From IMG/VR virus record IMGVR_UViG_3300006802_000444, positions 1-27,065 of that record: DNA of 27,065 nucleotides; one strand, given 5' to 3'. The position numbers and the translations under genes are program-made. Under the pieces are notes generated by a model. That model searched no databases, had not been told where the DNA came from, and worked only from the letters and a program-made list of their open reading frames with translations. Within the stretch, counting starts at the first letter, position 1; every line of letters begins with the position of its first letter. The DNA comes from a virus. Positions 8,512-25,254 of the stretch are shown piece by piece.

Positions 8512-8522
8512 GAGAAATAATT

Positions 8523-8855: not shown

Positions 8856-8867
8856 AAAATAATTTAT

Positions 8868-8875
8868 TATAAATA
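8868..8875 (+). promoter_or_regulatory. T4-type late promoter box TATAAATA
   Basis: An exact late-promoter box lies between the gp67-like gene and the next ATG at 8881. Only five bases separate box and start codon, so transcripts starting about six bases after the box would begin at or just inside the start codon. The promoter may therefore mainly serve gp21, gp22 and gp23 downstream, or give a leaderless message. Confidence 0.7.
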
Positions 8876-8880
8876 TATTA

Positions 8881-9734: not shown

Positions 9735-9746
9735 AGGAGTCCGCAC

Positions 9747-10658: not shown

Positions 10659-10679
10659 TTGTCTCATAGGAGAATAACA

Positions 10680-12017
10680 ATGGATTTAAATTACGATACT
10701 TTAGTTGAGAAGTGGAGCCCAGTTCTCAACGAGGAAACCTCGGGTCAAATCTCTGATCCATATCGCCGTAAAGTAACGGCTGCGATTCTTGAGAACCAAG
10801 AGCGCGCATTTACAGAGCAGACAAACATGCTGGCAGAAGCTGGTACGACAACTGCTAATGTTGCTAACTGGAACCCAGTACTGATTTCGCTGGTTCGTCG
10901 TGCAATGCCTAATCTGATGGCGTATGACGTTTGCGGCGTTCAGCCAATGAGCGGTCCTACTGGTCTGATTTTCGCGATGAAGTCGCGTTATAAGACAACT
11001 CGTGCTAATGCTACTAATGGTGGCGAGGCTCTGTTCCAAGAAGCTCTTACTGGCTACTCGGGTGACTCGAGCACAGGTCAGGATTCGGCTGCTCTTGATG
11101 TTGCTGGTCCTTCGGGTCTTGCTGCTGCTACAGACGGCGACGGTGACAGCACAATTGCTGACTCTGTTTCTACTAACATCTTCGGTGTTGGTATGTCGAC
11201 AACAGATGCTGAGCGTCTGGGCAATGGCACCAACAGTGCTTTCGCAGAAATGGGCTTCACCATTGAGAGAGCAACTGTAACAGCAGTTAGCCGTGCGCTG
11301 AAGGCTGAGTACACGCTGGAACTGGCTCAGGATCTCCGTGCTATCCACGGTCTGGATGCTGAAGCTGAACTGGCTAACATTCTCTCGGCTGAAATCCTCG
11401 CAGAAATTAACCGCGAAGTTATCCGTACGATCAACAGCCAAGCAAAACTGGGTTGCCAGCAAGCTGGTCTCGACATCAACGGTATTTTCAACCTTGCAAC
11501 GGACGCTGATGGTCGTTGGTCGGTTGAGAAGTTCAAGGGTCTGCTTGTTCAGCTCGATCGCGAAGCTAACGTAATTGCTAAAGAAACTCGTCGTGGCAAG
11601 GGTAACGTAGTTATCTGCTCTTCGGACGTTGCTACAGCACTTGCTGCTTCGGGTGCTCTTGACTATGCTCCTGCTCTGAGCACGAGCCTCCAGGTTGATG
11701 ATACTGGCAATACGTTCGCTGGTGTTCTTAACGGTCGTCTCCGTGTCTACATCGACCCATACGCAGTCGCTGACTACGTTACGGTTGGTTACAAGGGCAC
11801 GAACCCATACGACGCTGGCGTTTTCTACTGCCCATACGTTCCTCTGCAGATGGTACGTGCGGTTGGTGAGAATGACTTCCAGCCACGGATCGGCTTTAAG
11901 ACTCGTTATGGCATGGTCTCGAACCCATTTGTTGGCGCTGCTGCTGCAAGTGGTCTGGCTACTGCTAAGACGAATCAATATTACCGCATTTTTCGCGTCG
12001 ACAACATCCTGGCTTAA
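10680..12017 (+). CDS. 23: Major capsid protein precursor, gp23
   Basis: The start ATG at 10680 is set by AGGAG at 10668-10672; the in-frame TTG at 10659 would place that site inside the gene. The 445-aa product carries the gp23 signature NVANWNPVLISLVRRAMPNL at 60-79, followed by MAYDVCGVQPMSGPTG and IFAMKSRY. A (L/I)-x-E maturation site occurs as Leu51-Ala52-Glu53 just before AGTTTAN, so gp21 is predicted to remove 53 residues. The C-terminal part has the FLVGYKG-like patch YVTVGYKGTNPYDAGVFYCPYVPLQ typical of the P-domain/E-loop region in the cyanophage-like group; those residues are quoted in part only as landmarks. T4 gp23 is longer (521). A strong terminator follows 58 bases after the stop. 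Preferred codons (CTG, CGT, GGT, TCG) differ sharply from neighbouring genes. Confidence 0.95.
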   Translation: MDLNYDTLVEKWSPVLNEETSGQISDPYRRKVTAAILENQERAFTEQTNMLAEAGTTTANVANWNPVLISLVRRAMPNLMAYDVCGVQPMSGPTGLIFAMKSRYKTTRANATNGGEALFQEALTGYSGDSSTGQDSAALDVAGPSGLAAATDGDGDSTIADSVSTNIFGVGMSTTDAERLGNGTNSAFAEMGFTIERATVTAVSRALKAEYTLELAQDLRAIHGLDAEAELANILSAEILAEINREVIRTINSQAKLGCQQAGLDINGIFNLATDADGRWSVEKFKGLLVQLDREANVIAKETRRGKGNVVICSSDVATALAASGALDYAPALSTSLQVDDTGNTFAGVLNGRLRVYIDPYAVADYVTVGYKGTNPYDAGVFYCPYVPLQMVRAVGENDFQPRIGFKTRYGMVSNPFVGAAAASGLATAKTNQYYRIFRVDNILA

Positions 12018-12075
12018 TGCTAGGTTGTTAAAACCGAAAGAGTTTTCTGCAAAAACTATAAAAATAGCAGAATAT

Positions 12076-12103
12076 GGGGGATCCTTCGGGATCCCCCTTT
12101 TTT
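12076..12103 (+). terminator. Rho-independent terminator after gp23 (UUCG tetraloop)
   Basis: A perfect 9-bp GC-rich stem, GGGGGATCC (12076-12084) with GGATCCCCC (12089-12097), is closed by a TTCG loop in the C(UUCG)G context, an exceptionally stable tetraloop. Six T residues follow directly. It would end the head-gene transcript. There is no T-tract on the other strand, so it works in the + direction only. Confidence 0.95.
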
Positions 12104-12167
12104 ATGGATGAGTTTTCCATCCAGTTATACGCCCACGAACAAATCCTTTAGGGACAGGATCACCATC
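12102..12167 (-). pseudogene. Possible remnant of a homing-endonuclease C-terminus
   Basis: On the minus strand the frame between stops reads 21 residues ending at TAA (12102-12104), including PVPKGFVRGRITGWK. A P-x-G-(F/W)-x-x-G-R stretch near the C-terminus is common in phage HNH/GIY-YIG homing endonucleases and their relatives. No start codon or upstream coding sequence remains in the frame. It lies in the short gap beside the capsid gene, a typical site for intergenic endonucleases. This is a pattern guess on a very short stretch. Confidence 0.2.
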
Positions 12168-12175
12168 TTATAACA

Positions 12176-12183
12176 TATAAATA
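12176..12183 (+). promoter_or_regulatory. T4-type late promoter box TATAAATA
   Basis: An exact late-promoter box lies 30 bases before the ATG of the tail-tube-like gene and 72 bases after the gp23 terminator, restarting late transcription. The predicted leader is about 24 bases and includes a GGGG that could act as a ribosome binding site. Confidence 0.8.
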
Positions 12184-12213
12184 TACAATATAATATATCC
12201 ACGGGGATACAGT

Positions 12214-12717
12214 ATGTCAGAGTTGACAGATAACATTAATTTATTTCAACCAACAGGGTTTCGTGTTCTGATTGACAGAGCCAACTATGGTAATCTTCAA
12301 TTTTTCGCGCAATCTATTAGTCATCCTGGAGTTAATATCGGACCAGCAGAAGTCCCTTACCAAAGATTAACTTCTATTCCGATCCCTGGAGATAAGTTGT
12401 CTTTTGGGGAAGTTACTATGAATATTCTTCTTGATGAAGATTTAAATGCGTATGAAGAAGTTTTTAATTGGATGGTCAGACTGGTGAATACCAAATTCAC
12501 TACGAAATACGAAGCGTTAAAAGAAGGCACAATATCCAGTTACGCAGATATTACTCTTATTGCTCTTACGAATCATAATAACAAAAATAAAACTATAAAG
12601 TATGTTGATTGTATCCCAACTTCTATTGGTGATATATATTTTGAGGCGAACCAAGGGAGCGTCGAATACATAACTGTACCAGTGGGGTTTAGATTCTCTT
12701 ATTTTGAAATTGATTAA
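12214..12717 (+). CDS. Tail-tube-fold structural protein (gp19/gp54-like)
   Basis: The 167-aa protein has the conserved blocks of the T4 gp19-type tail-tube superfamily as found in T4-like marine phages. They are an N-terminal FRVLIDRANYGNLQFFAQSI strand pair, PGVNIGPAEVPYQRL, then IPGDKLSFGEVTMNILLDED and a helix YEEVFNWMVRLV. The C-terminal half ends in strands YITVPVGFRFSYFEI, matching the typical -FxVxFxFxYxxx ending. In the fold family, hexamers stack to form the tail tube or its baseplate initiator. In T4 the slot after gp23 holds gp24, so the location is not the T4 one. It could be the tube (gp19), the tube initiator (gp54) or a paralogue; the sequence alone does not tell me which. It has its own late promoter. 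Confidence 0.65.
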   Translation: MSELTDNINLFQPTGFRVLIDRANYGNLQFFAQSISHPGVNIGPAEVPYQRLTSIPIPGDKLSFGEVTMNILLDEDLNAYEEVFNWMVRLVNTKFTTKYEALKEGTISSYADITLIALTNHNNKNKTIKYVDCIPTSIGDIYFEANQGSVEYITVPVGFRFSYFEID

Positions 12718-12731
12718 ACTTGGATAATATT

Positions 12732-13172
12732 ATGGATTTGAATGAACTGCTTGAAATGTGGTCGAAAGACTGCGAGATCAGTAATAAACTTGATGATGTT
12801 TCTAGAGATACTCCAAAACTACACGCAAAATATTTAAGTATTCTTAGTTTATCTAAGTTGCAATTGCAAAGGGCAGAGAACGCTCAGAAAATTTTATTGC
12901 GTGATAAATTTTTGTATTATAATGGAAAAATGGATCGAAACGATATCGAAAAATATGGTTGGAGGGAAGATCCACTTGATGGTTTAAAAGTAATGAAAGG
13001 TGATATGGACCGTTGGTATGAAGCTGATATTGACATTCAAAAATCAGAAGAAAAAATTCTTTACTATAAGACTATGATAGATACTTTAAAAGAAATTGTT
13101 GATGCATTAAAATGGCGCCATCAGACAATAAAAAATATAATCGATTGGCGTAGATTCGAAGCTGGGGGATAA
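12732..13172 (+). CDS. uvsY: UvsY recombination mediator
   Basis: I use ATG 12732 (GGA eight bases upstream) rather than the TTG at 12720, giving 146 residues; T4 UvsY has 137. The start MDLNELLEMWSKDCEI is typical of the group, followed by LHAKYLSILSLSKLQLQ, the KFLYYNGK motif, DRWYEADIDIQKSEEKILYYKTMIDTLKEI (given here as landmarks in part) and the C-terminal IKNIIDWRRFEAGG. UvsY loads the UvsX recombinase onto gp32-coated single-stranded DNA in recombination-dependent replication and repair. The stop overlaps the uvsW start (TAATG), so the two are translationally coupled, as in other T4-like phages where uvsY and uvsW are neighbours. Confidence 0.88.
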   Translation: MDLNELLEMWSKDCEISNKLDDVSRDTPKLHAKYLSILSLSKLQLQRAENAQKILLRDKFLYYNGKMDRNDIEKYGWREDPLDGLKVMKGDMDRWYEADIDIQKSEEKILYYKTMIDTLKEIVDALKWRHQTIKNIIDWRRFEAGG

Positions 13173-14641
13173 TGGAAAAACTTACTATCCAAATGGTAGA
13201 TCACGCCATGATGGCGGTATTATGTGAACCATCTGTACGGAACGAATTAAAAGAATATTTTACTTTCGAAGTTCCAGGTGCAAAATTTATGCCAGCTGTT
13301 AAAGCGAGAAGGTGGGATGGTAAGATCCGTCTGTATAATTCGCTCACCTGCGAAATTAATACAGGTTTATATCATAAAATAAAAAAATTTGCAGCCGAAC
13401 GCCATTATGCGATAGAGCTTAAACAATCCAGATATGGAATTCCTGGAAGCACTAATGAAATAGATCATCAAAAGCTGGTGAAATTTTTAGGTTCTTTTAA
13501 TGCGCCATATGAGCTTCGAGATTATCAATATAGTGCTGTAACGCATGCAATAGAAAATAAACGGGCAGTATTAGTTTCCCCAACTGGTTCTGGTAAGTCG
13601 TTTATCATTTATAATTTGATGCGTTGGTATCTAGAAAATAAAAATAAACGTGTGCTTGTTGTCGTACCGACTACTAGTCTAGTCGAGCAGATGTATAAAG
13701 ATTTTAAAGATTACGGGTTTGACGCTGAAAACGAGTGTCATATTATTTACTCTGGTAAAGAAAAAGAAACTGGTAAGCGTGTTATTATCTCTACATGGCA
13801 AAGCATTCATAAATTACCAAAGGATTGGTATGCTGAGATAGGTTGCATTTTTGGAGATGAATGTCATCTATTTAAAGCCAAATCTCTGAATAGTATTATG
13901 AATAAATCAATTAATGCTGAATATCGTTTTGGCACAACGGGCACTCTTGATGGAACGCAAACACATAAATTAGTTTTGGAAGGGTTATTCGGACCAGTAT
14001 TTAAAGTCACCACAACTAAGAAACTACAGGAAGAAAATACTTTAGCTGGACTGAGTATAGATATACTATTGCTCGAGTATCCTAAAGAAATTTGTCGCAT
14101 GATGGTCGGTAAAAAATATCAAGAGGAACTTGAATTTATTGTTACGCATGAACCGAGAAATAAGTTGATACGAAACTTGGCGCTAACTCAAACTGGAAAT
14201 ACTCTTGTGTTATTTCAGTTTGTAGAGAAACACGGCGAAATACTTTATAAGATGATTAAAGAAAAAGCAAAAGATGTATATTATGTACATGGGGGTACGG
14301 ATACTTCGGATAGGGAAGCAATTCGCGGAATCGTGGAGAGGAAAGATGGAGCTATCATTGTCGCATCTCTTGGAACTTTTAGCACGGGTATTAATGTTAG
14401 GAATCTTCATAATATTATTTTTGCTAGTCCGTCAAAATCCCAAGTACGAGTTTTACAATCAATCGGAAGAGGACTCAGAAAAGCGGAAAACAACCAAGAC
14501 ACGAAACTGATCGATATTGCCGACGACCTTCATTGGGAATCCAAGAAAAATTTTACCTTGCTACATTCGGCTGAAAGGATTAAAATATATACTAAAGAGC
14601 AATTTGATTTTAAACTTCATAAAGTTACATTATCACACTAG
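13172..14641 (+). CDS. uvsW: UvsW superfamily 2 DNA helicase
   Basis: The 489-aa protein has the full set of SF2 helicase motifs: Walker A PTGSGKS at 137-143, motif II DECH at 229-232, motif III GTTGTLDG at 254-261, ASLGTFSTGINVRNL near 398-412, and motif VI QSIGRGLR at 429-436. The N-terminal domain includes KARRWDGKIRLYN, the DNA-binding part seen in UvsW. T4 UvsW (503 aa) unwinds R-loops and branched recombination intermediates and switches replication from origin-dependent to recombination-dependent mode. It directly follows uvsY with a one-base overlap, and a GGAG for the next gene is formed at its stop. All catalytic residues appear intact. Confidence 0.93.
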   Translation: MEKLTIQMVDHAMMAVLCEPSVRNELKEYFTFEVPGAKFMPAVKARRWDGKIRLYNSLTCEINTGLYHKIKKFAAERHYAIELKQSRYGIPGSTNEIDHQKLVKFLGSFNAPYELRDYQYSAVTHAIENKRAVLVSPTGSGKSFIIYNLMRWYLENKNKRVLVVVPTTSLVEQMYKDFKDYGFDAENECHIIYSGKEKETGKRVIISTWQSIHKLPKDWYAEIGCIFGDECHLFKAKSLNSIMNKSINAEYRFGTTGTLDGTQTHKLVLEGLFGPVFKVTTTKKLQEENTLAGLSIDILLLEYPKEICRMMVGKKYQEELEFIVTHEPRNKLIRNLALTQTGNTLVLFQFVEKHGEILYKMIKEKAKDVYYVHGGTDTSDREAIRGIVERKDGAIIVASLGTFSTGINVRNLHNIIFASPSKSQVRVLQSIGRGLRKAENNQDTKLIDIADDLHWESKKNFTLLHSAERIKIYTKEQFDFKLHKVTLSH

Positions 14642-15174: not shown

Positions 15175-15199
15175 ATTTTTGTTTGTAATGGAGTTTATT

Positions 15200-15802
15200 A
15201 TGAAGACCGAAAATGCGCACTATGTTAATAACGCAGATTTTTCTAAAGCGGTAGTTGATTATGTGAGAACTGCTAACGAAGCCAAGAAAAATGGAGAAAA
15301 GAGACCCATTGTTACTGACTATATCGCACAATGTTTCTTAAAAATTTCCGAGGGTCTTTCTCATAAAGCAAATTTCGCAAGGTACACATACCGAGAAGAA
15401 ATGGTTATGGATGCTGTCGAAAATTGCCTAAAGGCGATTGAAAATTATGATGTAGATGTCGCAACAAGAACGGGTAATCCGAACGCTTTTGCATATTTTA
15501 CCCAGATTGCATGGTATGCATTTCTACGCAGAATTGCTAAAGAGAAAAAGCAGCAGGAAATTAAACTCAAGTATTTAACTGAATCGAATTTGACAGATTT
15601 CATGATAGACTCCGAAGAGGATCCAGAAGTCTCGCAAATTATCCAGTCTTTTATTGATAATTTGAAAAAGCGAATCGACGAAATTAAAGAGAATGATAAA
15701 AAATTCGATGAGTATAAGAAAGAGTATAATAATCGTAGAAAGCAGCGGTCGTATGATTCTGACCTTATGGATTTTTTTCTTAATGAGGAAGAAAATGAAT
15801 GA
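15200..15802 (+). CDS. 55: Late-transcription sigma factor, gp55
   Basis: ATG 15200 is fixed by GGAG at 15190-15193; upstream in-frame starts at 15179 and 15188 overlap or precede that site. The 200-aa protein resembles T4 gp55 (185): it begins with YVNNADFSKAVVDYV (T4 YVNNKELLQAIIDW), followed by IAQCFLKISEGLSHKANFARY and EEMVMDAVENCLKAIENYD. Next comes NPNAFAYFTQIAWYAFLRRIAKEKK, the sigma region 2-like core helices (landmarks abbreviated). The end SDLMDFFLNEEENE parallels the T4 SPSLDFLYEANDE clamp-binding tail. gp55 directs RNA polymerase to TATAAATA boxes, coupled to the gp45 sliding clamp through this tail. Three such boxes occur in the window. The stop overlaps the gene 47 ATG. Confidence 0.92.
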   Translation: MKTENAHYVNNADFSKAVVDYVRTANEAKKNGEKRPIVTDYIAQCFLKISEGLSHKANFARYTYREEMVMDAVENCLKAIENYDVDVATRTGNPNAFAYFTQIAWYAFLRRIAKEKKQQEIKLKYLTESNLTDFMIDSEEDPEVSQIIQSFIDNLKKRIDEIKENDKKFDEYKKEYNNRRKQRSYDSDLMDFFLNEEENE

Positions 15803-16860
15803 AAATTGCTATATTAAACGACACCCATTGCGGCGTTAGAAACAGTTCTGATATTTTTGTAGAGTATCAAGAGCGGTTTTATAATGAAGTATTTTTTCCA
15901 TATCTATTAGAAAATAATATCAAACATATTCTCCACCTCGGAGATTACTATGAGCACAGAAGGTTTATTAACTTTAAAGCACTGAATAGTAATCGAAAAG
16001 TTTTTTTACAAAAATTACGTGATTATAAAATCGCCATGGATATTATCCCTGGGAATCATGATACTTATTATAAGAATACTAACGACCTCAACTCGCTGAA
16101 AGAACTGCTCGGTCATTATATGAACGAAGTGAACATCGTTATGCGACCAACAGTGTTGGAGTATGACGGATTGAAAGTGGGTCTTGTTCCGTGGATGGCT
16201 CCTGATGTTGAAGAGGAAACCTATGCATTTCTAAGAAATTGCGAAGCAGACATTATTGGGGGTCATTTCGAGCTACAAGGGTTCGATATGTATAGGGGTA
16301 TACCCTGTATGGAGGGTATGACTTCAGAAAGCCTCTCGCGCTTTGAGATGGTCCTCTCGGGTCATTTCCACACTAAATCCCAAAGGGATAATATATATTA
16401 CCTTGGATCTCAGATGGAATTTTTCTGGAATGATGCAGGGGACGATAAATTCTTCCATGTATTGGACACAGAAACTCGTGAGATAACTGCGGTACAAAAT
16501 CGCCTAAAACTTTTTAATAAGATTTATTATGACGATACAAAATATGATTACAAGAATGCGGATGTAAAATTCTTAGATAATACTTTTGTAAAGGTTATTG
16601 TGTTAAATAAATCAGATCCCTTGACTTTTAATCTGTTTTTAGATAGAATACAAACTAGAAATATCCATGAGCTAAAAATTCAAGAAGATCTTACAGAATT
16701 TTCTGGCGAAAGGGTTTCTGATGAAAACATCTCTGTTGAAGACACGAAAGAACTCTTAGCAAGTTACGTTGACGCAGTTGAGACTGTCTTAGATAAAGAG
16801 CGTATAAAGAATAAAGTTTTTGAACTTATGCTTGAGGCTCAAACTATGGAAATGGTATGA
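15799..16860 (+). CDS. 47: Recombination nuclease subunit gp47 (Mre11-like)
   Basis: The 353-aa protein shows the metallophosphoesterase motifs of Mre11/SbcD nucleases in order: NDTH at 7-10, GDYYEHR at 48-54, GNHD at 85-88, GGHFE at 154-158 and SGHFHT at 187-192. All metal ligands appear present. T4 gp47 is 339 aa. With gp46 it forms the end-resection complex that makes 3' single strands for UvsX/UvsY and degrades host DNA. The start overlaps the gp55 stop by four bases (ATGA), and the end overlaps the gene 46 start. First-motif sequence DTH in place of the more usual DLH or DxH is within family variation. Confidence 0.94.
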   Translation: MKIAILNDTHCGVRNSSDIFVEYQERFYNEVFFPYLLENNIKHILHLGDYYEHRRFINFKALNSNRKVFLQKLRDYKIAMDIIPGNHDTYYKNTNDLNSLKELLGHYMNEVNIVMRPTVLEYDGLKVGLVPWMAPDVEEETYAFLRNCEADIIGGHFELQGFDMYRGIPCMEGMTSESLSRFEMVLSGHFHTKSQRDNIYYLGSQMEFFWNDAGDDKFFHVLDTETREITAVQNRLKLFNKIYYDDTKYDYKNADVKFLDNTFVKVIVLNKSDPLTFNLFLDRIQTRNIHELKIQEDLTEFSGERVSDENISVEDTKELLASYVDAVETVLDKERIKNKVFELMLEAQTMEMV

Positions 16861-18569
16861 TTATCTTTAAAAAGATACGATATAAAAATTTTCTAAGTTC
16901 TGGTGATAATTTTACTGAAATAAATTTGAATAATTCTAAGTCAACTCTTATTGTTGGACAAAACGGTTCTGGTAAATCGACAATGCTCGATGCATTATCG
17001 TTCGTCCTATTTGGAAAGGCGCATAGAAATATCAATAAACCTCAATTGATTAACTCTATCAATCAAAAGAATATGTTGGTTGAAGTAGAGTTTACCATAG
17101 GTAATGTTGATTATACTGTATTTCGCGGTATGAAACCAAATGTGTTCGAAATTTGGCGAGGCGAAGAACTGATTAATCAAGATTCGCACAATAAAGATTA
17201 TCAAAAGGTTTTAGAGCAGAATATTCTCAAACTTAATCATAAATCTTTTCATCAGATTATCGTCCTTGGTTCTTCTTCTTTTGTTCCGTTTATGCAATTG
17301 CCTGCGCAACATAGGCGCGAAGTTATTGAAGATTTGTTAGACATTAATGTGTTTAGTAAAATGAATCAACTTCTAAAAGAGAAAAGTCTTTCTTTAAAAG
17401 AAGAAATGAAAAGTAATGATCATGCGATAGAAATAAATTATACCAAAATCGTTTCCCATAAAAAGTATATTAACGATATTCAAAGATTAAATGATGACTA
17501 TCGCCAAGAAAAACAAAATCAAATAAACGATTACTCAGCTGAGATAAAACAGCTGATGGAGAAAAATGTTTTCCTTAACGATGAATTAGTTGACAAAGAT
17601 AAAACCCAATTAGATATATCTTCTTTGACTGAAAAAGTTAGATCTTTGCAATCTTCTGATATTGAATATAAAACTAGAATGAAGGTGATTGTAAAGGAAG
17701 CAAGATTTTATGAGAATAACGAAACCTGCCCCACTTGCGAGCAAAATATACAAGCCGAACTTAAAGAAAGAAAGCTAGAAACTGCCAGGGATCAAGCAAA
17801 GGAAATACAATCTAATATTAATATCATAGCCGATCAGTTATCTATTTCGAACGAATCCCTCGCTTCTTTGAACAAAAAGGTTGAAGAAATTCGCGGGGTA
17901 CAAAACGAAATTCATTCTAATAACAAAACAATCGAACGATTGCAGAAGTCTATGCAAACTGCAACTCTCGAACTGTCGAATATGAACGACAGTTCAGGAG
18001 ATCTTTCGCTCGCGAATCATGAGCTAGAAGAATTATGTTCTGAAAAGAACAAATTACAGGCTAAGAAATTTGACCTTAACGATAATTTTTCGTATAATCA
18101 AGTTATAGCGGAATTGCTTAAAGATACTGGTATCAAGACTAAAATTATCAAACAGTATTTACCAGTGATGAATAAATTGATTAATCAGTTTCTTCAGATT
18201 TTAGATTTTTATGTTCTATTTGATATCGACGAAACTTTTAAAGAAACGATTAAGTCTAGGCATCGAGATATTTTTAGTTATGAGTCATTTTCTGAAGGCG
18301 AAAAACAGAGAATCGACTTAGCGTTGTTGTTTACCTGGCGTATGATTGCTAAAATGAAAAACAGTGTAGCGACTAATCTACTCGTTCTTGATGAGACTTT
18401 CGACTCGAGTCTAGATACCGATGGAGTGGAAAATCTAACAAAAATTCTCGACTCTTTGGGTGAAGAAACTAATGTGTTTGTGATTAGCCATAAAGGCGAT
18501 ATGCTGGAAGGTAAATTTGATTCTAAGATTGAATTTGTGAAGCATAAAAATTTTAGTAAGGTGGCATAA
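16857..18569 (+). CDS. 46: Recombination nuclease ATPase subunit gp46 (Rad50-like)
   Basis: At 570 aa it matches T4 gp46 (560). The N-terminal Walker A GQNGSGKS lies at 34-41. Two coiled-coil arms flank the zinc-hook CPTC at 291-294. The ABC signature SFSEGEKQR lies at 477-485, and Walker B VLDETFDSSLD has Asp512 and Glu513, followed by an FVISHKG switch segment. The partner is gp47, whose gene overlaps by four bases. It provides ATP-driven control of end resection at breaks and replication ends. Codon use is AT-rich, like its neighbours. The following gene begins at the next base after the stop. Confidence 0.95.
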   Translation: MIIFKKIRYKNFLSSGDNFTEINLNNSKSTLIVGQNGSGKSTMLDALSFVLFGKAHRNINKPQLINSINQKNMLVEVEFTIGNVDYTVFRGMKPNVFEIWRGEELINQDSHNKDYQKVLEQNILKLNHKSFHQIIVLGSSSFVPFMQLPAQHRREVIEDLLDINVFSKMNQLLKEKSLSLKEEMKSNDHAIEINYTKIVSHKKYINDIQRLNDDYRQEKQNQINDYSAEIKQLMEKNVFLNDELVDKDKTQLDISSLTEKVRSLQSSDIEYKTRMKVIVKEARFYENNETCPTCEQNIQAELKERKLETARDQAKEIQSNINIIADQLSISNESLASLNKKVEEIRGVQNEIHSNNKTIERLQKSMQTATLELSNMNDSSGDLSLANHELEELCSEKNKLQAKKFDLNDNFSYNQVIAELLKDTGIKTKIIKQYLPVMNKLINQFLQILDFYVLFDIDETFKETIKSRHRDIFSYESFSEGEKQRIDLALLFTWRMIAKMKNSVATNLLVLDETFDSSLDTDGVENLTKILDSLGEETNVFVISHKGDMLEGKFDSKIEFVKHKNFSKVA

Positions 18570-18890
18570 GTGCATAGATTGAGGAATAAAACATATCCTG
18601 CTTTAACTTCTGTTTATGACGAAATAAACAATTATAAAAAAGAAAAAGTTACTTTCTTTGATGGTATTCGTATTATAACAGATAAAAATGTTTATGCAAT
18701 GGTGGATAGTATTGTTTATGTAACTCCGATTGAAGAATACAAAGAAAGGGAAAGACAATTAAAATATCAGCAAGATGAAAGAAATTCTATAGAAGAATTG
18801 AGAGTTAAGGCTCGATTGGAAAAACAGTTCGACGAACCTAAAAAGCCCAAAAAACGTGCAGTTAAACGTAAAACATTTAAGAGGCAATAA
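18570..18890 (+). CDS. Small basic protein of unknown function (106 aa, GTG start)
   Basis: I do not recognise this gene. The only workable start is the GTG at 18570, immediately after the gp46 stop, with AAGG about nine bases upstream inside gp46. The N-terminal half is a small beta-like module (VTFFDGIRIITDKNVYAMVDSIVYV). The C-terminal half is a charged helix (YKERERQLKYQQDERNSIEEL) and a Lys/Arg tail (PKKPKKRAVKRKTFKRQ) suited to nucleic-acid binding. The stop shares one base with the start of the dioxygenase gene (TAATG). Its place between gp46 and the dioxygenase suggests a DNA-associated helper, but this is inference. Confidence 0.7.
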   Translation: MHRLRNKTYPALTSVYDEINNYKKEKVTFFDGIRIITDKNVYAMVDSIVYVTPIEEYKERERQLKYQQDERNSIEELRVKARLEKQFDEPKKPKKRAVKRKTFKRQ

Positions 18891-20275
18891 TGAAAGGAAA
18901 TATTGATACGAAAAAATATATCTGTTATGACGATAATGGAGTAAAAGTTGTTGTTTCCAATTTTTGGGAAAATTGCGAATCTAAACTCGGCACATATATG
19001 GAAGATACCGATTACGATTTTGTGGTAGAAGAAGATACGGATTTCTATGCACCATTAAACGATCAGTTAGTCGAGGAAGGCATTTCTGAAAAGAATATTA
19101 TTTTTAAATTTCGTAAAGGTTCTTTCACTGAAGAAGAACAACTTGGTGCATATGATGGTTTGATGGCTGCAGCGCAACCGACTCAGAATCGTGGTGTCGC
19201 TGCTGGTCCAAAGGGCGAAAAGTTGCAGGGACGCGATTGGGTCACCAACGAGCAAATAGAAATTATGGAAGCGTATATCCAAGATTCGAATAATCTTTTT
19301 GGTGAAGATGTTATCGAAAAAATTATAAACAAATATAAAACTGTAGACAATGTTGCTACTCGCGGTTTAGTATGGCTTAGAAATAAAGTAACTGAAGATT
19401 TCGGCGAATATGACGGGTTTTTCGATAAACTTATGATCGAATGGAAATCAATGTCTTCTAATAAGCGCATTGAATATATTAAAAATGTAAAGAAAAAATA
19501 CATTTCTGATACGACCTATGCTAATGCCGTCAACTCTGGTATCGCTGGTTTCTTTGACCGATATCCTCGCATTCCTTATGGTCGCGCTACTTCATATACA
19601 GAAAAGAATAGAGAACTATACGAAAAATGCTATCCTTTTATGAGAAAACTCTCGAACGAATTCAAACGATTGCTTCCTAATAGATATGCTGTACAAGAGG
19701 ATTATGCTAACAAGATCGATCCGCGTTTTAGGGTTGCTGGGAAAGATACCCCATTCACTACTATTACTGTTAATAAAAACTTCCGTACAGCGGCTCATAG
19801 GGACGCAGGAGACCTACACGAAGGGTTCTCTAACCTTACGGTAGTGGCTAAAGACAAAGAATGGAGAGGCGGGTATCTAGTTTTGCCAGAATTCCGTGTT
19901 GCTGTGAACATAAGACCAGGTGATCTCCTCCTAATCAACAATCATACTGGTATTCACGGCAACACGGAACTTTTCCCGCCAGAAGGTAAGCCAATCGAAG
20001 AAATGGAACGAATTTCTCTAGTTTGCTATTTTCGAGAGAAAATGCTAGAATTGGGTTCTTGGGAATACGAACAACATCGGTATGAGTTTGTAGAATCTAG
20101 GCGCTTGAATAAAGATCATCCTATGTGGAAACCATTATGGAACGGCGTATCTCCTGGGATGTGGGAAGATCAAGAGTGGTTTGATTATTTGAAAACAGTT
20201 GGTGGTGAATCTATGTTGAATCAATATCATCCAAAACAAACAACTGCTACTTCACTCGAAGATTTTTTTGCATAA
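18890..20275 (+). CDS. TET/JBP-family 2-oxoglutarate/Fe(II) DNA base dioxygenase, with N-terminal extension
   Basis: The C-terminal half of this 461-aa protein has a complete TET/JBP-type double-stranded beta-helix core: AAHRDAGD with iron ligands His303 and Asp305, NLTVVAK, GGYLVLPEFRVAV, RPGDLLL, then HTGIHGN with the third iron ligand most likely His356. ERISLVCYFRE follows, with Arg374 placed to bind 2-oxoglutarate. The helical stretch before it (about 215-265, FFDRYPRIPYGRATSYTEKN) is also typical. Such enzymes oxidise the 5-methyl group of thymine (JBP) or 5-methylcytosine (TET) in DNA. The N-terminal ~200 residues are not recognised. No cytosine methyltransferase is in the window, so I lean towards thymine, but the substrate is open. 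It is fused into the gp55-47-46 operon with one-base stop/start overlaps on both sides. Confidence 0.8.
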   Translation: MKGNIDTKKYICYDDNGVKVVVSNFWENCESKLGTYMEDTDYDFVVEEDTDFYAPLNDQLVEEGISEKNIIFKFRKGSFTEEEQLGAYDGLMAAAQPTQNRGVAAGPKGEKLQGRDWVTNEQIEIMEAYIQDSNNLFGEDVIEKIINKYKTVDNVATRGLVWLRNKVTEDFGEYDGFFDKLMIEWKSMSSNKRIEYIKNVKKKYISDTTYANAVNSGIAGFFDRYPRIPYGRATSYTEKNRELYEKCYPFMRKLSNEFKRLLPNRYAVQEDYANKIDPRFRVAGKDTPFTTITVNKNFRTAAHRDAGDLHEGFSNLTVVAKDKEWRGGYLVLPEFRVAVNIRPGDLLLINNHTGIHGNTELFPPEGKPIEEMERISLVCYFREKMLELGSWEYEQHRYEFVESRRLNKDHPMWKPLWNGVSPGMWEDQEWFDYLKTVGGESMLNQYHPKQTTATSLEDFFA

Positions 20276-20940
20276 TGTGTGGAGTTATCGGAATTAGTTT
20301 AAAAAATGTAACACAACAAGATCTAAATTTAGTAGAAAAGGTATTTTGTGAAACAATAATTCGTGGAAAACATGCGACTGGATTGTCCTATGTGAAGGGT
20401 GATAAGGTGCATACTATAAAGGAAAGTAAACCTGTTACTGAATTTATAAACGATAAAAGATTTGAAGATTATGTTAATGAAGACGGCAACCTATATTTGA
20501 TCGGTCACATTCGATATTCGACTTCAGATTTGAGATACAATCAACCTTTTTCTGACGAATACATTTCTATTGCGCATAATGGTGTTATTTCTCAAGAAAA
20601 TCCATCTACATGGAAATACAAATGCGAAACCGCTAACGATAGTGAAATGATATTCCACTCTTTAAAAGCTGGTAATGATCCGCTAACTGATTTTCTACCA
20701 GCATCAATGGCAGTTGTTTGTTTAAATTATAAAAAACAACTCATAGGGTTTCGTAACAACGAAAGACCATTATATTTTTCTGAAAAAGAAAATGGTATTA
20801 TTTTTACTTCTACTAAAGATATCGCTGCTCGATCTGGTTTGACTTTTACACAAAAATGTGATATGTTTACTCGATACATGTACGATAGTAAAATGACAGT
20901 AGAAAAAGTTTTACATGCAAAGGTAGATGATTTACAATGA
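20275..20940 (+). CDS. Class II (Ntn-type) glutamine amidotransferase
   Basis: The 221-aa protein begins MCGVIGI, with Cys2 as the N-terminal nucleophile after Met removal. Further landmarks are IIRGKHATGLSYV near 28-40, GHIRYSTSD (GHxRYST motif) near 97-105, IAHNGVI near 118-124 and NDSEMIFHSL near 141-150. All are hallmarks of GATase type 2 domains that release ammonia from glutamine. It lacks any synthase domain, so ammonia must go to a partner, most naturally the amidoligase encoded next. Genes of this pair (stand-alone class II amidotransferase plus amidoligase) are a known phage and bacterial association. Its start shares one base with the dioxygenase stop, and its stop overlaps the amidoligase ATG by four bases. 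Confidence 0.88.
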   Translation: MCGVIGISLKNVTQQDLNLVEKVFCETIIRGKHATGLSYVKGDKVHTIKESKPVTEFINDKRFEDYVNEDGNLYLIGHIRYSTSDLRYNQPFSDEYISIAHNGVISQENPSTWKYKCETANDSEMIFHSLKAGNDPLTDFLPASMAVVCLNYKKQLIGFRNNERPLYFSEKENGIIFTSTKDIAARSGLTFTQKCDMFTRYMYDSKMTVEKVLHAKVDDLQ

Positions 20941-21812
20941 TATATGATAGTAAAACTTGGACTTGGGGTTATGAGATCGAATGGGGTGATATTGATCGCA
21001 CTATCGAAATTCCTAAACATCTCGGCTCTTGGGAATATGCTGAAACAGATATTGTAAACATTCGCGAGCCATATAAATTTATTGCGTGCGATCCACTCGG
21101 TATAGAACCACCTATGGGCGGCGAAATTAATACTAGACCAACAACAACTTGGATGGAACAAGTTGATCGTGTAATGGAAATACACGATTTTTTTGTTTCA
21201 CATGGAAATCAACCTTCAGCGTCAGTTATAAATCATGGACATCTTCATGTTTTTGTGCCTGGTTTGAAAAATGATATTTCTGCACTGAAACGGTTGATCT
21301 CATATATAAAAATAAATCAGGAAAAAACTATAGAAGCATGTTATCAATTTCGAGAAAAATCGGAAATGAAATTGCTCAAGGGTTCTAAAATGTATTTAAA
21401 ATTTGATGGCGGTCGAACGATGCCAGATTATATGTGTGATAATATCATAAATCTAGCCACTGATTTTGATCATTTTATAAAATTACATGCAGCTGGTAAA
21501 GATGGTGTTTCGATGGGTAGACCATTTAGATATGCTATTAATACTTATTGTATGAAACACACTGGTACGATTGAGTTCCGTTGTTTTCGCTCGACTACTG
21601 AACGCAAACAAATTGAAGATCAATTTGCCTTCGCAGAAGCGTTTATCGATGCAGCACTAAACAATGGTTCTAGTGTTGAAAAGATTTTATCAGAGCATAA
21701 TTATAATTTTCCACCATTCGTTTGGAATCCAGGCGAGTATAAAGGTTGGATGAATACCAAATACGATAAGTCGCGTGGTGAAAAGAAGCGAGAGTTTCAT
21801 GAACTTGCGTAG
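20937..21812 (+). CDS. Amidoligase (glutamine synthetase-fold COOH-NH2 ligase)
   Basis: The 291-aa protein has the amidoligase family landmarks: WGYEIEW at 10-16 with metal-binding Glu13 and Glu15, GGEINT at 61-66, HGHLHVFV at 100-107, FRYAINTY at 197-204 and TIEFRCF at 211-217. These correspond to the glutamine synthetase-like active site, which uses ATP to activate a carboxylate and join it to an amine or ammonia. The gene lies between a class II amidotransferase and a GNAT gene, an arrangement noted before for this family and interpreted as synthesis of a small amide or peptide-like conjugate. Here, beside a base-oxidising enzyme, the acceptor could be a modified base or its precursor. Its end overlaps the GNAT gene by 14 bases. 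Confidence 0.85.
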   Translation: MIYDSKTWTWGYEIEWGDIDRTIEIPKHLGSWEYAETDIVNIREPYKFIACDPLGIEPPMGGEINTRPTTTWMEQVDRVMEIHDFFVSHGNQPSASVINHGHLHVFVPGLKNDISALKRLISYIKINQEKTIEACYQFREKSEMKLLKGSKMYLKFDGGRTMPDYMCDNIINLATDFDHFIKLHAAGKDGVSMGRPFRYAINTYCMKHTGTIEFRCFRSTTERKQIEDQFAFAEAFIDAALNNGSSVEKILSEHNYNFPPFVWNPGEYKGWMNTKYDKSRGEKKREFHELA

Positions 21813-22341
21813 TTGTTCCGCCGAGGAATTCAAAGCAGCAATCACTGATAATCCTGCGGATAAATTCGCAAAAACTTTTGTTGCGAAAGCAAACATGCAA
21901 AACCAATGGGAATTTTGTGTTGGTGCATGGGAAGACGATACACTGCTTGGTGCAATCATTACGACTATTAGTAAACGTCCTCCCAAGATAGCAAATCTAC
22001 AGTTACTCCATACTTTCGCAGAACATAGAGGCAAACATGTGGGTAGTATTCTTTGTAAGGACTCTCTCCGCATTGCGATACAAAACGATGCCCTATACTT
22101 CCGAGTATCGGCTGAACCTGATGCAGTGAAATTCTATGAGCGTATTGGATTCACTATGTTAGGGAAACAAAAGAGCGGTAGTCAGCTTTCTATGTTTAGA
22201 ATCGATGGTGATACATTTGAAAAGGGTGATTATAGTTTAGAAAATGAACCTATCTATAAAGCTGTTCATAAGAAAGGTAAAGGCGGTTGTGTTGAAATAT
22301 TTGTTCCAGATCCTGTAGGAATAACTAACTTCTTGATTTAA
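21799..22341 (+). CDS. GNAT-family N-acetyltransferase
   Basis: I choose ATG 21799 (preceded by GAGAG), giving 180 aa; tandem GTG codons at 21775 and 21778 are possible but lie deeper in the amidoligase gene. The GNAT acetyl-CoA motif appears as HRGKHVGSIL (motif A, RGKHVG at 77-82), preceded by the strand ANLQLLHTFAE, and the C-terminal AVKFYERIGFTMLGK is the usual motif B helix and strand. The last 45 residues (from GDYSLENEP) are an unrecognised tail. It overlaps the amidoligase gene, so co-translation is likely. GNAT proteins appear with amidoligases and in phage base-modification clusters, where they acylate an amino group. Substrate unknown. Confidence 0.82.
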   Translation: MNLRSCSAEEFKAAITDNPADKFAKTFVAKANMQNQWEFCVGAWEDDTLLGAIITTISKRPPKIANLQLLHTFAEHRGKHVGSILCKDSLRIAIQNDALYFRVSAEPDAVKFYERIGFTMLGKQKSGSQLSMFRIDGDTFEKGDYSLENEPIYKAVHKKGKGGCVEIFVPDPVGITNFLI

Positions 22342-22357
22342 TGGTGAAAAAAAACGG

Positions 22358-22386
22358 TTGATTTCTACCTCTAAAATAGCTACAAT
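22358..22386 (+). promoter_or_regulatory. Host-type promoter before the ParB-like/transferase/kinase genes
   Basis: TTGATT (22358-22363) and TACAAT (22381-22386) are spaced by 17 bases in the intergenic gap after the GNAT gene. Transcription would begin about 22393, inside the palindrome that follows. A good ribosome binding site (GAGGA, 22441-22445) precedes the ATG at 22453. Confidence 0.6.
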
Positions 22387-22391
22387 TGGTT

Positions 22392-22413
22392 TGTAGATTG
22401 ATGATAATCTACA
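22392..22413 (+). promoter_or_regulatory. Perfect inverted repeat at the predicted transcription start
   Basis: TGTAGATT (22392-22399) and AATCTACA (22406-22413) are perfect inverted repeats around a 6-base loop (GATGAT), five bases after the -10 box. The position and symmetry fit either a repressor operator overlapping the start site or a 5'-end RNA hairpin protecting the transcript. It has no T-run, so it is not a terminator. Confidence 0.55.
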
Positions 22414-22452
22414 TTAACCTAAAATGCTAATTACCGAGTAGAGGACAAGCAT

Positions 22453-23754
22453 ATGTATTTAGAATCAAAAGTTATTGTTTATGGGTTTCGTAACATCGAA
22501 ACGCAACAGGTCTATATTGGTTACAAACCTGCTGGAAAGGCTCATTATATCAGTTCTTCTGGTAATGAGGATTTTTGGCGAGATTATTCTCAAGGTTTGT
22601 TGCGCCAACATATTCTTTTCATTGGAAATGGTTACGATGAAAAAGACTCTCAAACTGCTGAAGCGTTAGAGTGGTTTGCACTTGATTATGCGTTTAAAAT
22701 CTTGGGTAAAAACAAGATGTATAACTCACATAACAATGCGCACAAAAAACATGAATCTCTACTTACTTCTGAGATTAAGTCTGTTGTGGTCGACTGGATT
22801 GAATTTCGTTCTGTAGGCATTGTTTTGGAAAATTCTTACCAAAAACATCGAGAAAGAGTCCAAGCGATTGTCGATCGTATAAAAGAAAGTTTCTATACGG
22901 TCGAGAAAGTCTCTTTGTCGAAAGTTTCCAAGTTCGGATTTAATCAGGTTCGATGCGAGCAGTATATTCCCTCTCATGTGAACGAAATTGCCCAGCGAAT
23001 AAAAGAGAAACCAGACAATTATGAGAAAAACGTCGAACCGATTATTGCAGTAGTGGGCAAAGATATTACCATTCTTGATGGAAACAACACTGCCCGTGCG
23101 TTGCAAAAAGTTCTTGGTATTACTGAGGCACCAGTCATTTTCATTAACGAAACTGAGTTTGGTGAAACCGAAGAAGTACGTGCAAGTTGTTATAACTTGT
23201 TCGGTCTGATTATGAACAAAGAACCCGAAAAGGTTCGTGTCAAAAACAGTGACTCTGACATCAAACGCCAGATGCAGCTGCTACTTGATAACGAGGGGTT
23301 GGATCTTACAAAACCAATTCACGTTGATCGTGCTAGGAAAGTTGTGGAGGATTTCTTTCTGCACAGCGTAATCCCTACCAAGCAAAAACTCAATGGTTTG
23401 TGGAAGTCTTTTATGACTGACTTTAAAAAGGGGCAGTCTGAAAAATATAGACAAAATATGAAAGTTTATGATGATACATTCCTTCATAGATATTGCTGGG
23501 ATAAATATGAATCGAAAGATGTGGCTGTTATTCACGCTAAGATGTGTAAAACTGAATATGCGCAAGTATTAGGATATATTTGTCGTCGTATGAAAAATGT
23601 AGGCGTCGATAAAGGTGCGATTGTGCTTCATTACACTAGTCCTTATGAATATCTAAAGTTCAATAATGAGGAATGGTTGGAAGATCTCAAATCTACCGTC
23701 AATCATATTGGACTAGATATCACAATAGAAGTGCTACCAGTATTTAATGAGTAA
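22453..23754 (+). CDS. GIY-YIG-like / ParB-like fusion protein (433 aa)
   Basis: Residues 1-115 resemble a GIY-YIG nuclease domain: KVIVYGFRNIETQQVYIGYK carries the YG...VYIG strands, then HYISSSGN and a later Glu-containing helix. The catalytic Arg is not evident, so this domain may be inactive. Residues about 165-235 resemble a ParB/sulfiredoxin-like domain: VRCEQYIPSHVNEIAQRI, then PIIAVVGKDITILDGNNTARA, where DGNNTARA stands for the family DGxHRxxA motif. The rest is helical and unrecognised, ending in an alpha/beta segment (AIVLHYTSPYEYL). ParB-like domains bind nucleotides and occur in predicted phage base-modification clusters. The gene has its own promoter, and its stop overlaps the next ATG. 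Confidence 0.65.
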   Translation: MYLESKVIVYGFRNIETQQVYIGYKPAGKAHYISSSGNEDFWRDYSQGLLRQHILFIGNGYDEKDSQTAEALEWFALDYAFKILGKNKMYNSHNNAHKKHESLLTSEIKSVVVDWIEFRSVGIVLENSYQKHRERVQAIVDRIKESFYTVEKVSLSKVSKFGFNQVRCEQYIPSHVNEIAQRIKEKPDNYEKNVEPIIAVVGKDITILDGNNTARALQKVLGITEAPVIFINETEFGETEEVRASCYNLFGLIMNKEPEKVRVKNSDSDIKRQMQLLLDNEGLDLTKPIHVDRARKVVEDFFLHSVIPTKQKLNGLWKSFMTDFKKGQSEKYRQNMKVYDDTFLHRYCWDKYESKDVAVIHAKMCKTEYAQVLGYICRRMKNVGVDKGAIVLHYTSPYEYLKFNNEEWLEDLKSTVNHIGLDITIEVLPVFNE

Positions 23755-24715
23755 TTGTGCAATATTTGTAGAGTGGTTCGGTCGCAGTCTTGAAATTGAA
23801 GACTGCGACCCTGCCATTTTTATGACAAATTATTTTTTCGATCGGTTCGAGTATAATACAGAACAAAGGCTCTGGTTATCTTGGATTTATGGTACAACCT
23901 ATTATTGGCCAACAGCTTATATTGTTTGGAATGAATTTCCTGATATGGAACTCGTTGGTGTCGAAAGGTTACGCAATTGGAATAATGAAAATTATAAACG
24001 ACTGCGATACCAAAAGGATACTAAATGGAATAAGGGGCATTTGGCAGCTCAATTTGAATCTTATAAAGATTGGGTTGGCGATCGCCCGCAGCGCAAAGCA
24101 TTAACTGAAAAGTTTGTTGGCGATCCTGTGAAAGATTTTTATACTTTATGGGATGATGTCAATTCCTGGCATAAATTTGGTCGGTATTCTTCTTGGTTTT
24201 ATATTCAAACACTTAAACAATGTTGTAATATGCCAATTGAACTAGATAGTCTTTGGCTGCATGATTACAGCGGTTCTCGTTCGCACCGCAATGGATTATG
24301 TTATGCGGTAGGAAAGGAAGAATGGATCGATAAAAAGTTAAATGCTCAAGAAATAGATTATCTAGAGGGTATTGGGCGCGAACTTCTATCTGAAACAAAG
24401 TTGTCGTTCCCTAATGTTGCCGACAAAGCGGATGTTTTTTCCATGGAAACTGCGCTTTGCAGTTTTAAAAAATTATTTCGGAAACGGGATGGTCGATATC
24501 TCGGATATTATCTCGATAGACAAGCAGAAGAAATTAAACAAGTTGAAAAAGACGGGTGGGTTGGAATTGATTGGACCCCGATGTGGGATGCAAGAAAAGA
24601 ACTCCTTCAAGATAAATTCTTGACTAATTCCATAAACAAAGGTAAAATGGAATTATTCCTTGATACTGGAAATTTCGATCCAACTGAACGCAAACATTTG
24701 GAATTATTTTTATGA
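23747..24715 (+). CDS. Helical protein of the alpha-glutamyl/putrescinyl-thymine pyrophosphorylase (amino acid:DNA transferase) superfamily
   Basis: The 322-aa all-helical protein carries the pattern I associate with this superfamily: an N-terminal YFFDRFEYNTEQRLWLSWIYG helix (landmark, part shown), W-rich helices, WHKFGRYSSWFYIQTL at 141-156, HDYSGSRSHRNGL at 172-184, and METALCSFKKLFRKRDGRYL with GYYLDRQAEEI at 233-263. Members act on DNA containing 5-phosphomethyl- or pyrophosphomethyl-uracil, replacing the phosphate with an amino acid or amine, or form the helical half of the 5-hydroxymethyluridine DNA kinase. The adjacent P-loop kinase gene, overlapping by four bases, strongly favours that pathway. 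The ATG overlaps the previous stop without a clear Shine-Dalgarno. Superfamily assignment is from motif memory; the clade is uncertain. Confidence 0.65.
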   Translation: MSNCAIFVEWFGRSLEIEDCDPAIFMTNYFFDRFEYNTEQRLWLSWIYGTTYYWPTAYIVWNEFPDMELVGVERLRNWNNENYKRLRYQKDTKWNKGHLAAQFESYKDWVGDRPQRKALTEKFVGDPVKDFYTLWDDVNSWHKFGRYSSWFYIQTLKQCCNMPIELDSLWLHDYSGSRSHRNGLCYAVGKEEWIDKKLNAQEIDYLEGIGRELLSETKLSFPNVADKADVFSMETALCSFKKLFRKRDGRYLGYYLDRQAEEIKQVEKDGWVGIDWTPMWDARKELLQDKFLTNSINKGKMELFLDTGNFDPTERKHLELFL

Positions 24716-25254
24716 AATTAATTTACATAATCGGTGTCCCAGGAACTGGTAAATCTACTGTTATGAAACAATTTATGTCTCACTATTCAGAATGGAAACA
24801 AGAAAAGGTTGTTGATCTTTTGGAGACACATGTCTCTGGTAACATTAGGGTTCTTGGGAAATATGAAGAAGGGGAAACTTTTTCTGGCACTGATCGTTTA
24901 AGCATGGCAGTGGCTCCGAAAGCCATTGAGTGGATTAATACTAAACCAAATGAAATAATTTTCGGTGAAGGTGATAGGTTGAATAATAAAGCATTCTTCG
25001 AGTCTGCTGGTGATAATCTTGTTATAATTCATTTAACTGTTTCTGATCAAGAACGAAAAAGAAGATACCAAGAGCGAGGCTCCGATCAATCTGAGAAGTT
25101 TATTCAAACTACAAAAACAAAAGTGAAGAATATCATAGATCACTTCGGACCAAAGAACACTCTATTCGGCGAAGAACCTGGATATGTGTATACTTTCCCT
25201 CATGAAACTCCCGAAGACACAAGAAAAATCGTTGAATTCATGCTAAGTTATTGA
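24712..25254 (+). CDS. P-loop kinase, candidate hydroxymethyl-pyrimidine DNA kinase
   Basis: The 180-aa protein starts MKLIYIIGVPGTGKSTVMKQ, a Walker A at residues 8-16, in a nucleotide/polynucleotide kinase-like P-loop fold. NEIIFGEGDRLNN is the probable Walker B/substrate segment, and VSDQERKRRYQERGSDQ has the Arg-rich lid. Proteins of this size beside the pyrophosphorylase-superfamily gene are the activating kinases of thymidine hypermodification, which phosphorylate 5-hydroxymethyluridine in DNA. Here the pair is encoded as two separate polypeptides with an ATGA overlap. Ordinary dNMP kinase is possible, but the sequence does not resemble T4 gp1 or thymidylate kinase to my eye. It ends the second modification operon. 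Confidence 0.75.
   Translation: MKLIYIIGVPGTGKSTVMKQFMSHYSEWKQEKVVDLLETHVSGNIRVLGKYEEGETFSGTDRLSMAVAPKAIEWINTKPNEIIFGEGDRLNNKAFFESAGDNLVIIHLTVSDQERKRRYQERGSDQSEKFIQTTKTKVKNIIDHFGPKNTLFGEEPGYVYTFPHETPEDTRKIVEFMLSY

Follow-up and report, generated by a model that had tools for sequence, protein, structure and literature searches.

How might a virus hypermodify a base of its DNA if it lacks an enzyme to hydroxymethylate the nucleotide beforehand? The question is raised by a run of seven genes in the 27,065-base IMG/VR virus record IMGVR_UViG_3300006802_000444 (positions 1-27,065; the whole stretch is called the window below). In order, they encode a TET/JBP oxygenase, a class II amidotransferase (GAT), an amidoligase (AML), a GNAT acyltransferase, a ParB-like protein (GYParB), an ADDT-family transferase and a P-loop kinase (Table 1). 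We consider it probable that the locus is an operon for the post-replicative hypermodification of thymine in T4-like phages, with tails that would place some of its enzymes on the sliding clamp. A preliminary description of the window had proposed an oxidation-initiated hypermodification pathway; given the protein families, the conservation of the cassette and the negative searches for PF00303 and PF00145, this is still the best reading. The clamp-like tails had not been seen in that description.

Genes of the cassette and their families

The seven genes were found as open reading frames (ORFs) at 18890-25254, all on the plus strand, and the families first given for them mostly hold. The TET, GAT, GNAT, ADDT and kinase proteins of the window all exceed the Pfam cut-offs (Table 1), which bears out the earlier TET/JBP, GAT, GNAT and kinase placements; in a search of its own record the TET scored 91.9 bits. 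The placement of 23747-24715 as an aGPT-PPlase was not upheld: aGPT-PPlase3 (PF18746) gave 18.1 bits against a cut-off of 25, ADDT fits far better, and the protein is related to the ADDT family of phage ViI. The GNAT probably starts at the ATG at 21799 and not, as first described, at 21775, judging from the sequence and its relatives.

The amidoligase and ParB-like calls were settled by relatives and predicted folds. Against PF12224 (Amidoligase_2) the window amidoligase scores 16.4 bits, under the cut-off; 28 of 34 relatives match the family (best 1.8e-4), and residues E13, E15, E63, H102, H104, E213 and R215 are invariant. Its AlphaFold model (pLDDT 90.9, pTM 0.90) matches glutamine synthetases (GS), gamma-glutamylcysteine synthetases (GCS), GshF, YbdK, GmaS and PafA across the top 50 matches listed, with Z scores of 9.4-11.1 (11.1 for the YbdK-like 1tt4, with 219 residues aligned at 4.5 A; about 10 for GS; 9.6 for GCS). 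From this modeled GS/GCS fold we propose that the protein is an ATP-dependent amide former. A sequence search of the PDB with the AML and ADDT profiles gave no matches. A cellular origin was set aside, as a close amidoligase was found only on one 3.6 kb contig of a metagenome-assembled genome (MAG), plus one distant WOR-3 locus.

In the GAT, the proposed ammonia donor, M1-C2 is invariant and the RYST, HNGV and ND(S/T)E motifs are conserved among 30 relatives. A ParB_N domain was matched in 6 of 21 GYParB relatives (best 5.3e-8), with no match in the window member itself; the predicted fold matches Noc, PadC and sulfiredoxin, and the N-terminus is GIY-YIG-like in an alignment read by eye only. 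Among the 25 best matches listed for the kinase there is no HMUDK or HMUD2 family; we propose that it is a 5-hydroxymethyluracil (5hmU) DNA kinase. Its gene comes next after ADDT or TET in the cassettes.

The run follows gp46 and a small ORF. TAATG junctions link this ORF to TET and TET to GAT; overlaps of 4-14 bp occur at AML/GNAT and ADDT/kinase as well as at GAT/AML, with 8 bp at GYParB/ADDT, and the sole real gap is the 111 bp from GNAT to GYParB.

Table 1. Position and assignment of the features of the cassette and of its upstream neighbors in the window.
Feature	Position	Strand	Evidence	Pfam cut-off (bits)
TET/JBP Fe(II)/2-oxoglutarate dioxygenase, 461 aa, ends ...ATSLEDFFA	18890..20275	+	PF12851 (Tet_JBP), 89.2 bits	34.9
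TET C-terminal SLEDFFA tail, sliding-clamp-interacting-peptide-like	20252..20272	+	motif kept in relatives' TETs and polymerases	
GAT, class II (Ntn) glutaminase/amidotransferase, 221 aa, nucleophile Cys2	20275..20940	+	GATase_6, 37.1 bits	27
AML, glutamine synthetase/gamma-GCS-fold amidoligase (proposed), 291 aa	20937..21812	+	weak PF12224 match, relatives, fold	22
GNAT N-acyltransferase, ends ...GITNFLI	21799..22341 (longest frame from 21775)	+	Acetyltransf_10, 44.6 bits	23.6
GYParB, GIY-YIG-like plus ParB/sulfiredoxin-like protein, 433 aa	22453..23754	+	relatives and fold	
ADDT-family base:nucleophile transferase, 322 aa, ends ...HLELFL	23747..24715	+	PF18724, 88.9 bits	26.2
P-loop kinase, 180 aa, without clamp-like tail	24712..25254	+	Ploopntkinase3 (PF18751), 73.3 bits	27
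gp47 and gp46 recombination nuclease genes	15799..18569	+	PHROG matches; anchor the place of cassette insertion	

Conservation and exchange of modules

Scans of IMG/VR with TET and with the amidoligase found 59 loci and 226 loci (80 kept), respectively, and a scan with ADDT found at least 537 loci of its family (80 kept). Where the amidoligase-found loci had upstream flank, GAT was present in 56/56 and TET in 54/56; where they had downstream flank, GNAT, ADDT and kinase were each present in 41/41, and GYParB in 19/41. With the scans pooled, TET, GAT and kinase genes accompany ADDT in 72/72 viral loci whose flanks were long enough. The preliminary description had called this combination unusual; in one respect this does not hold, since relatives occur on hundreds of uncultured viral contigs. 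The cassette is widespread, a fixed set in one group of T4-like bacterial viruses from natural waters. With such co-occurrence a chance neighborhood was dismissed. It is scarcely credible that the genes are unrelated metabolic morons, of surface or amino-acid metabolism, that became neighbors by accident; GAT and amidoligase genes are found in other phage contexts, but here co-occurrence and order are invariant across many divergent contigs, and ADDT, TET and the P-loop kinase are DNA-modification-specific families.

GYParB was dismissed as a core part, being present in fewer than half of these loci. Thus its ParB-like family stands, whereas its earlier inclusion in the pathway does not; it is a probable DNA-binding or homing passenger.

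The middle of the cassette takes three forms: AML plus GNAT, with GYParB optional; a different GNAT alone; or a fusion of AML with a low-molecular-weight phosphatase. In many relatives gp46 lies upstream of the TET modules, and at about 20 loci the TET in this same place has another partner, a TET-associated glycosyltransferase (TAGT) of family PF20691. This exchange makes the 5-hydroxymethyl base look like a branch point; we read TET as the putative supplier of a common 5-hydroxymethyl handle to which downstream modules are swapped.

Several related loci were observed alongside. Loci L010, L022, L026, L031, L043 and others carry, after gp46, TET and TAGT genes that both end in SLEDFF-like tails; PF00303 and PF00145 are absent from the records searched for these, and we regard them as candidate phage base-J-like systems. 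A WOR-3 MAG (L181, 2331-10395) has a TET-less cassette with a 5hmU-kinase-like P-loop protein, GAT, ADDT, an amidoligase-phosphatase fusion and a radical SAM protein with SPASM, and a broken PF00303 match elsewhere on the contig. Vibrio phage 2.275.O (L006, 9887-15095) has a class II GAT and a distantly related amidoligase inside a 7-deazaguanine gene cluster, with QueC-like, reductase and GTP cyclohydrolase genes, so the two together may also have a part in further kinds of DNA base modification. Phage Simon (L007, ~7000-14543) encodes an amidoligase with no relatives found in IMG/VR, a separate low-molecular-weight phosphatase-like ORF, a gene of the thymidylate synthase (TS) family and ADDT; we read this as an amidoligase within what appears to be a hydroxymethylase-type pathway.

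The base on which TET acts

When aligned to TET2, the iron triad H303, D305 and H356 and the 2-oxoglutarate-binding R374 are invariant in 33/33 TET relatives. PF00303, which comprises thymidylate synthases and dUMP/dCMP hydroxymethylases, was found in 0/38 IMG/VR records, including contigs of 168, 162, 155, 154, 150, 133 and 131 kb, and in none of Stenotrophomonas phage DLP6, C48C1 and S-CBWM1; among TET-bearing records, only Caulobacter phage Cr30 has it. Both DLP6 and Cr30 are cultured phages with TET. The cytosine-C5 methyltransferase family PF00145 was found in 0/42 records (the 38 from IMG/VR and four cultured or complete phage records, Cr30 among them). ThyX, the positive control, was detected in 12/30 records. 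Three phages with ADDT but, in the parts of the genomes read, no TET, namely ViI, Vibrio phage D506 and phage Simon, do carry PF00303 genes. With neither a hydroxymethylase-type nor a C5-methyltransferase gene in the 38 IMG/VR records, the substrate is probably thymine in DNA, and TET probably turns thymine that has already been incorporated into 5hmU. The suggestion in the preliminary description that the oxygenase replaces a dUMP hydroxymethylase has thus survived a search well beyond the window.

It is quite improbable that TET instead acts on 5-methylcytosine and that the cassette hypermodifies cytosine. Such a role would agree with the finding that, among solved structures, the TET profile matches TET2 best, and characterized phage TETs reportedly oxidize 5-methylcytosine (Burke and colleagues, in 2021). 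Yet both of the residues that we take to be TET2 base contacts are replaced, N1387 by D308 in 25/33 TETs (S or N in the others) and H1904 by R382 in 32/33. An Asp at the N1387 position would presumably suit the N3-H of thymine. In ViI, moreover, the families of ADDT and of the 5hmU kinase are linked to thymine, and the 38 records contain neither PF00145 nor a PF00303 dCMP enzyme. With no methyltransferase found in the searched records, a cytosine pathway was dismissed.

Proposed pathway

In the thymine pathway that we propose, TET/JBP would hydroxylate the thymine methyl group in DNA to give 5hmU, a step that would stand in for the nucleotide-level dUMP hydroxymethylase of the ViI type. By homology, the kinase would phosphorylate the hydroxymethyl group to 5-phosphomethyluracil, and ADDT would displace the phosphate with a nitrogen nucleophile; we propose that this is GAT-derived ammonia, giving 5-aminomethyluracil. 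The swappable last module, either the GS-fold ATP-dependent ligase with or without GNAT, or the other GNAT alone, would make the amine an amide, N-acyl-aminomethyluracil. GmaS and PafA couple a glutamate carboxylate to a primary amine, and the amidoligase would work like them. Our best guess for the final base is N-acylated 5-aminomethyluracil, and its likely purpose is protection against host nucleases. The DLP6 paper contains no usable statement on the restriction resistance of DLP6 DNA.

A possible but rather unlikely arrangement has ADDT attach an intact amino acid, in the manner of ViI and M6, after which AML would use GAT ammonia to amidate its carboxyl group and GNAT would cap its amine. 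ADDT is named after amino acid transfer, the amidoligase has a predicted GS fold and GS uses ammonia, and there is a 4-bp overlap between the genes for GAT and AML. However, GAT is retained in 17/17 cassettes without AML, which disfavors a GAT that serves only the amidoligase and places the partner of GAT probably within the core. Since GAT is in every cassette and AML is dispensable, ammonia is favored over the transfer of a whole amino acid.

Tails shared with the DNA polymerase

The TETs have SLEDFF-like C-termini, which we sought as the pattern [STGNA][LIM][EDQSATN].[FML][FML] within the last ten residues. The pattern was frozen after the discovery set and then applied to new loci, and sequences were counted once if unique by their last 40 residues. 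In the discovery set it is present in 72/78 TETs, 29/57 ADDTs, 11/15 alternative GNATs, 11/13 TAGTs and 25/32 DNA polymerases, and in 8/906 other ORFs, 0/61 GATs, 0/51 AMLs, 1/45 kinases and 0/29 GYParBs. The replication set gave 39/40 for TET, 29/53 for ADDT, 13/26 for the alternative GNAT and 6/6 for the polymerase, with 7/378 other ORFs, 0/44 GATs, 0/26 AMLs and 0/43 kinases. Pooled, the counts are 111/118 (TET), 58/110 (ADDT), 24/41 (alternative GNAT) and 15/1284 (other ORFs); the tail sequences are related by descent, so Fisher values for these counts are not true probabilities. GAT and AML, which have no tail, may work on small molecules or depend on partners for their recruitment.

In the co-encoded pair of locus L022, the polymerase ends in KASLEDFFV and TET in KSSLEDFFI. 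The C-terminus of the T4 polymerase gp43 is ASLDFLFG, and the SLEDFFA tail of the window TET is of the same SLxxxF type. SLDFLF is the clamp-interacting peptide of gp43, whose association with the clamp is abolished without the last six residues (PMC12746103), and the RB69 peptide has been crystallized on the clamp gp45 (PMC3012046). In 11/30 records gp45-like clamps were matched, mostly under the family cut-off.

Two other lineages were compared, using patterns picked post hoc, after their tails had been seen. In ViI, among the 101 ORFs of the parts read, an LLSMM-type tail occurs in only three: the DNA polymerase, ADDT and 5hmU kinase 2. In D506, 5/159 ORFs end in [KR][KR]LW, namely the polymerase, ADDT, two 5hmU-kinase-family proteins and a 99-aa protein. 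The nucleotide-acting TS-family enzymes of both phages are without the tail. Bue1 is less clear (ADDT ends in NLLSLFGR, the polymerase in NLMAMLKKQQDKG). The same enzyme class with the tail of its polymerase in three lineages points to a shared partner, for which the clamp is the obvious candidate. The polymerase-like tails of TET, ADDT and the alternative GNAT would thus place the DNA-level steps probably on the sliding clamp behind the fork, and they suggest a replisome-tethered hypermodification in which DNA is decorated during copying.

That the tail is some other sorting or stability tag seems unlikely to us. The case for a tag draws on T4 alpha-glucosyltransferase, which binds gp45 without the motif, and on the fact that a clamp role is read from sequence. 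It does not sit well with the match to polymerase tails of the same genome, with the structurally seen clamp contact of the peptide in T4 and RB69, or with ViI and D506, where the tail and that of the polymerase change together.

Several points weigh against a clamp-borne thymine pathway. The kinase is tailless though expected to act on DNA, and T4 alpha-glucosyltransferase, tried as a positive control, failed as such, its C-terminus lacking the motif; together, these make the tail a putative and not a required clamp contact. In ADDT the motif is confined to about half of the proteins, and in the window the ADDT (HLELFL) and GNAT (GITNFLI) tails are looser than that of TET. Ammonia as the nucleophile rests solely on gene co-occurrence, and the order of the chemistry after phosphorylation is our inference. 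The IMG/VR records may be incomplete, which limits the PF00303 and PF00145 negatives, and Cr30, with TET, ADDT and kinase, also carries a TS-family gene.

As a tentative generalization, and a serious possibility that we hold short of conviction, phage hypermodification may be a replisome-coupled assembly line whose DNA-acting enzymes bear the polymerase tail of their lineage; in the cassette, a clamp-riding TET would make 5hmU in nascent DNA, to be followed by amination with glutamine-derived ammonia and an amide cap.

Similar ends were seen in other proteins. In L026 (9681-10010) and relatives, the gene just upstream of TET encodes a small zinc-ribbon-like CxxC protein with a clamp-like tail (GSLEEFMV). 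A Dam-like DNA methyltransferase ORF among the background ORFs (294 aa, family assigned by eye) ends in STLDAFFG and is a possible clamp rider. The 99-aa protein of D506 (VPHD506_0077; L188, 5591-5890), with its polymerase-like RLW tail, adjoins a DNA ligase gene. In the window, the late sigma factor gp55 homolog (15179-15802) ends in SDLMDFFLNEEENE, with LxxFF near the C-terminus, which is consistent with the binding of gp45 by gp55.

Other features of the window

Other T4-like genes of the window, assigned like gp47 and gp46 by PHROG matches, encode head and tail proteins, UvsY, UvsW and the late sigma factor. At the start of the contig (3-208), a collagen-like Gly-x-y tandem repeat with a 48-base unit and 4.3 copies sits in a probable tail or fiber protein.

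Comparison with known systems

The cassette makes a strong genomic case for phage TETs that act on thymine without a nucleotide-level hydroxymethylase, it gives a name to a module found in hundreds of uncultured viral contigs, and it raises the general possibility that the sliding clamp carries the enzymes of hypermodification. For DNA labeling and sequencing, a TET specific for thymine and an enzyme that amidates DNA would be useful tools. Within the literature searched, and as far as that shows, three things are new: a GAT/amidoligase/GNAT cassette whose middle can be swapped, a genome-wide search for its hydroxymethyl source, and tails that match the polymerase of each lineage. The clamp-tail idea is the part that could become general. 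A search outside the subscription journals for hypermodification together with the sliding clamp returned no title or abstract that claims such tails.

TET-initiated thymine hypermodification in phages was reportedly predicted by Iyer and colleagues in 2013, and parts of the cassette may already figure there. Thymidine hypermodification by ADDT is established (PMC6449724), reportedly through work of Lee and colleagues in 2018 and 2022. Burke and colleagues are said to have described, in 2021, cytosine systems in which a phage TET works with a C5-methyltransferase. These are alike in that a phage TET/JBP starts hypermodification, and some relatives of the cassette pair TET with TAGT; however, they have a C5-methyltransferase, and none was found in the cassette records. 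In kinetoplastid base J, the TET/JBP enzymes JBP1/2 oxidize thymine in DNA and a glucosyltransferase follows. Base J thus ends in glucosylation, whereas we propose phosphorylation with amine and amide chemistry for the window; the nearer counterpart of base J is seen in the TET-TAGT sister loci.

ViI (Kuttervirus) DNA carries 5-NeOmdU (PMC6449724). Its pathway, reported by Lee and colleagues in 2018, has an ADDT-family transferase in common with the cassette, and also a DNA-level hydroxymethyl kinase step like the one proposed here. One type of tail recurs in its polymerase, ADDT and 5hmU kinase 2, as another does in TET, many ADDTs and the polymerase of the cassette phages. The hydroxymethyl group comes from the TS-family Vi01_060 in ViI, whereas the cassette has TET and no such gene was found; where ViI uses a pyridoxal phosphate (PLP) enzyme, the cassette has GAT, amidoligase and GNAT.

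Rhodococcus phage Tonitrus has ParB-like, TET/JBP-like, aGPT-PPlase2 and 5hmU kinase genes together (PMC11955845); its transferase is thus an aGPT-PPlase2, with no GAT or amidoligase reported, whereas the window has ADDT, GAT and amidoligase. The CmoA/CmoX/CmoY pathway of phage S-B43, which leads to a glycine conjugate of 5-carboxymethylcytosine (5cxmC), forms an amide on a DNA base handle at the expense of ATP (PMC12783734). There, the handle is carboxymethylcytosine and the ligase an asparagine synthetase homolog; in the window, the proposed handle is thymine-derived and the proposed ligase a GS-fold amidoligase. T4 alpha-glucosyltransferase is a DNA-modifying enzyme bound to gp45, and the sole clamp-bound phage modification enzyme that surfaced in our literature search (PMC13216743). 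It has no polymerase-like C-terminal peptide, whereas in the cassette several enzymes of one pathway carry one.

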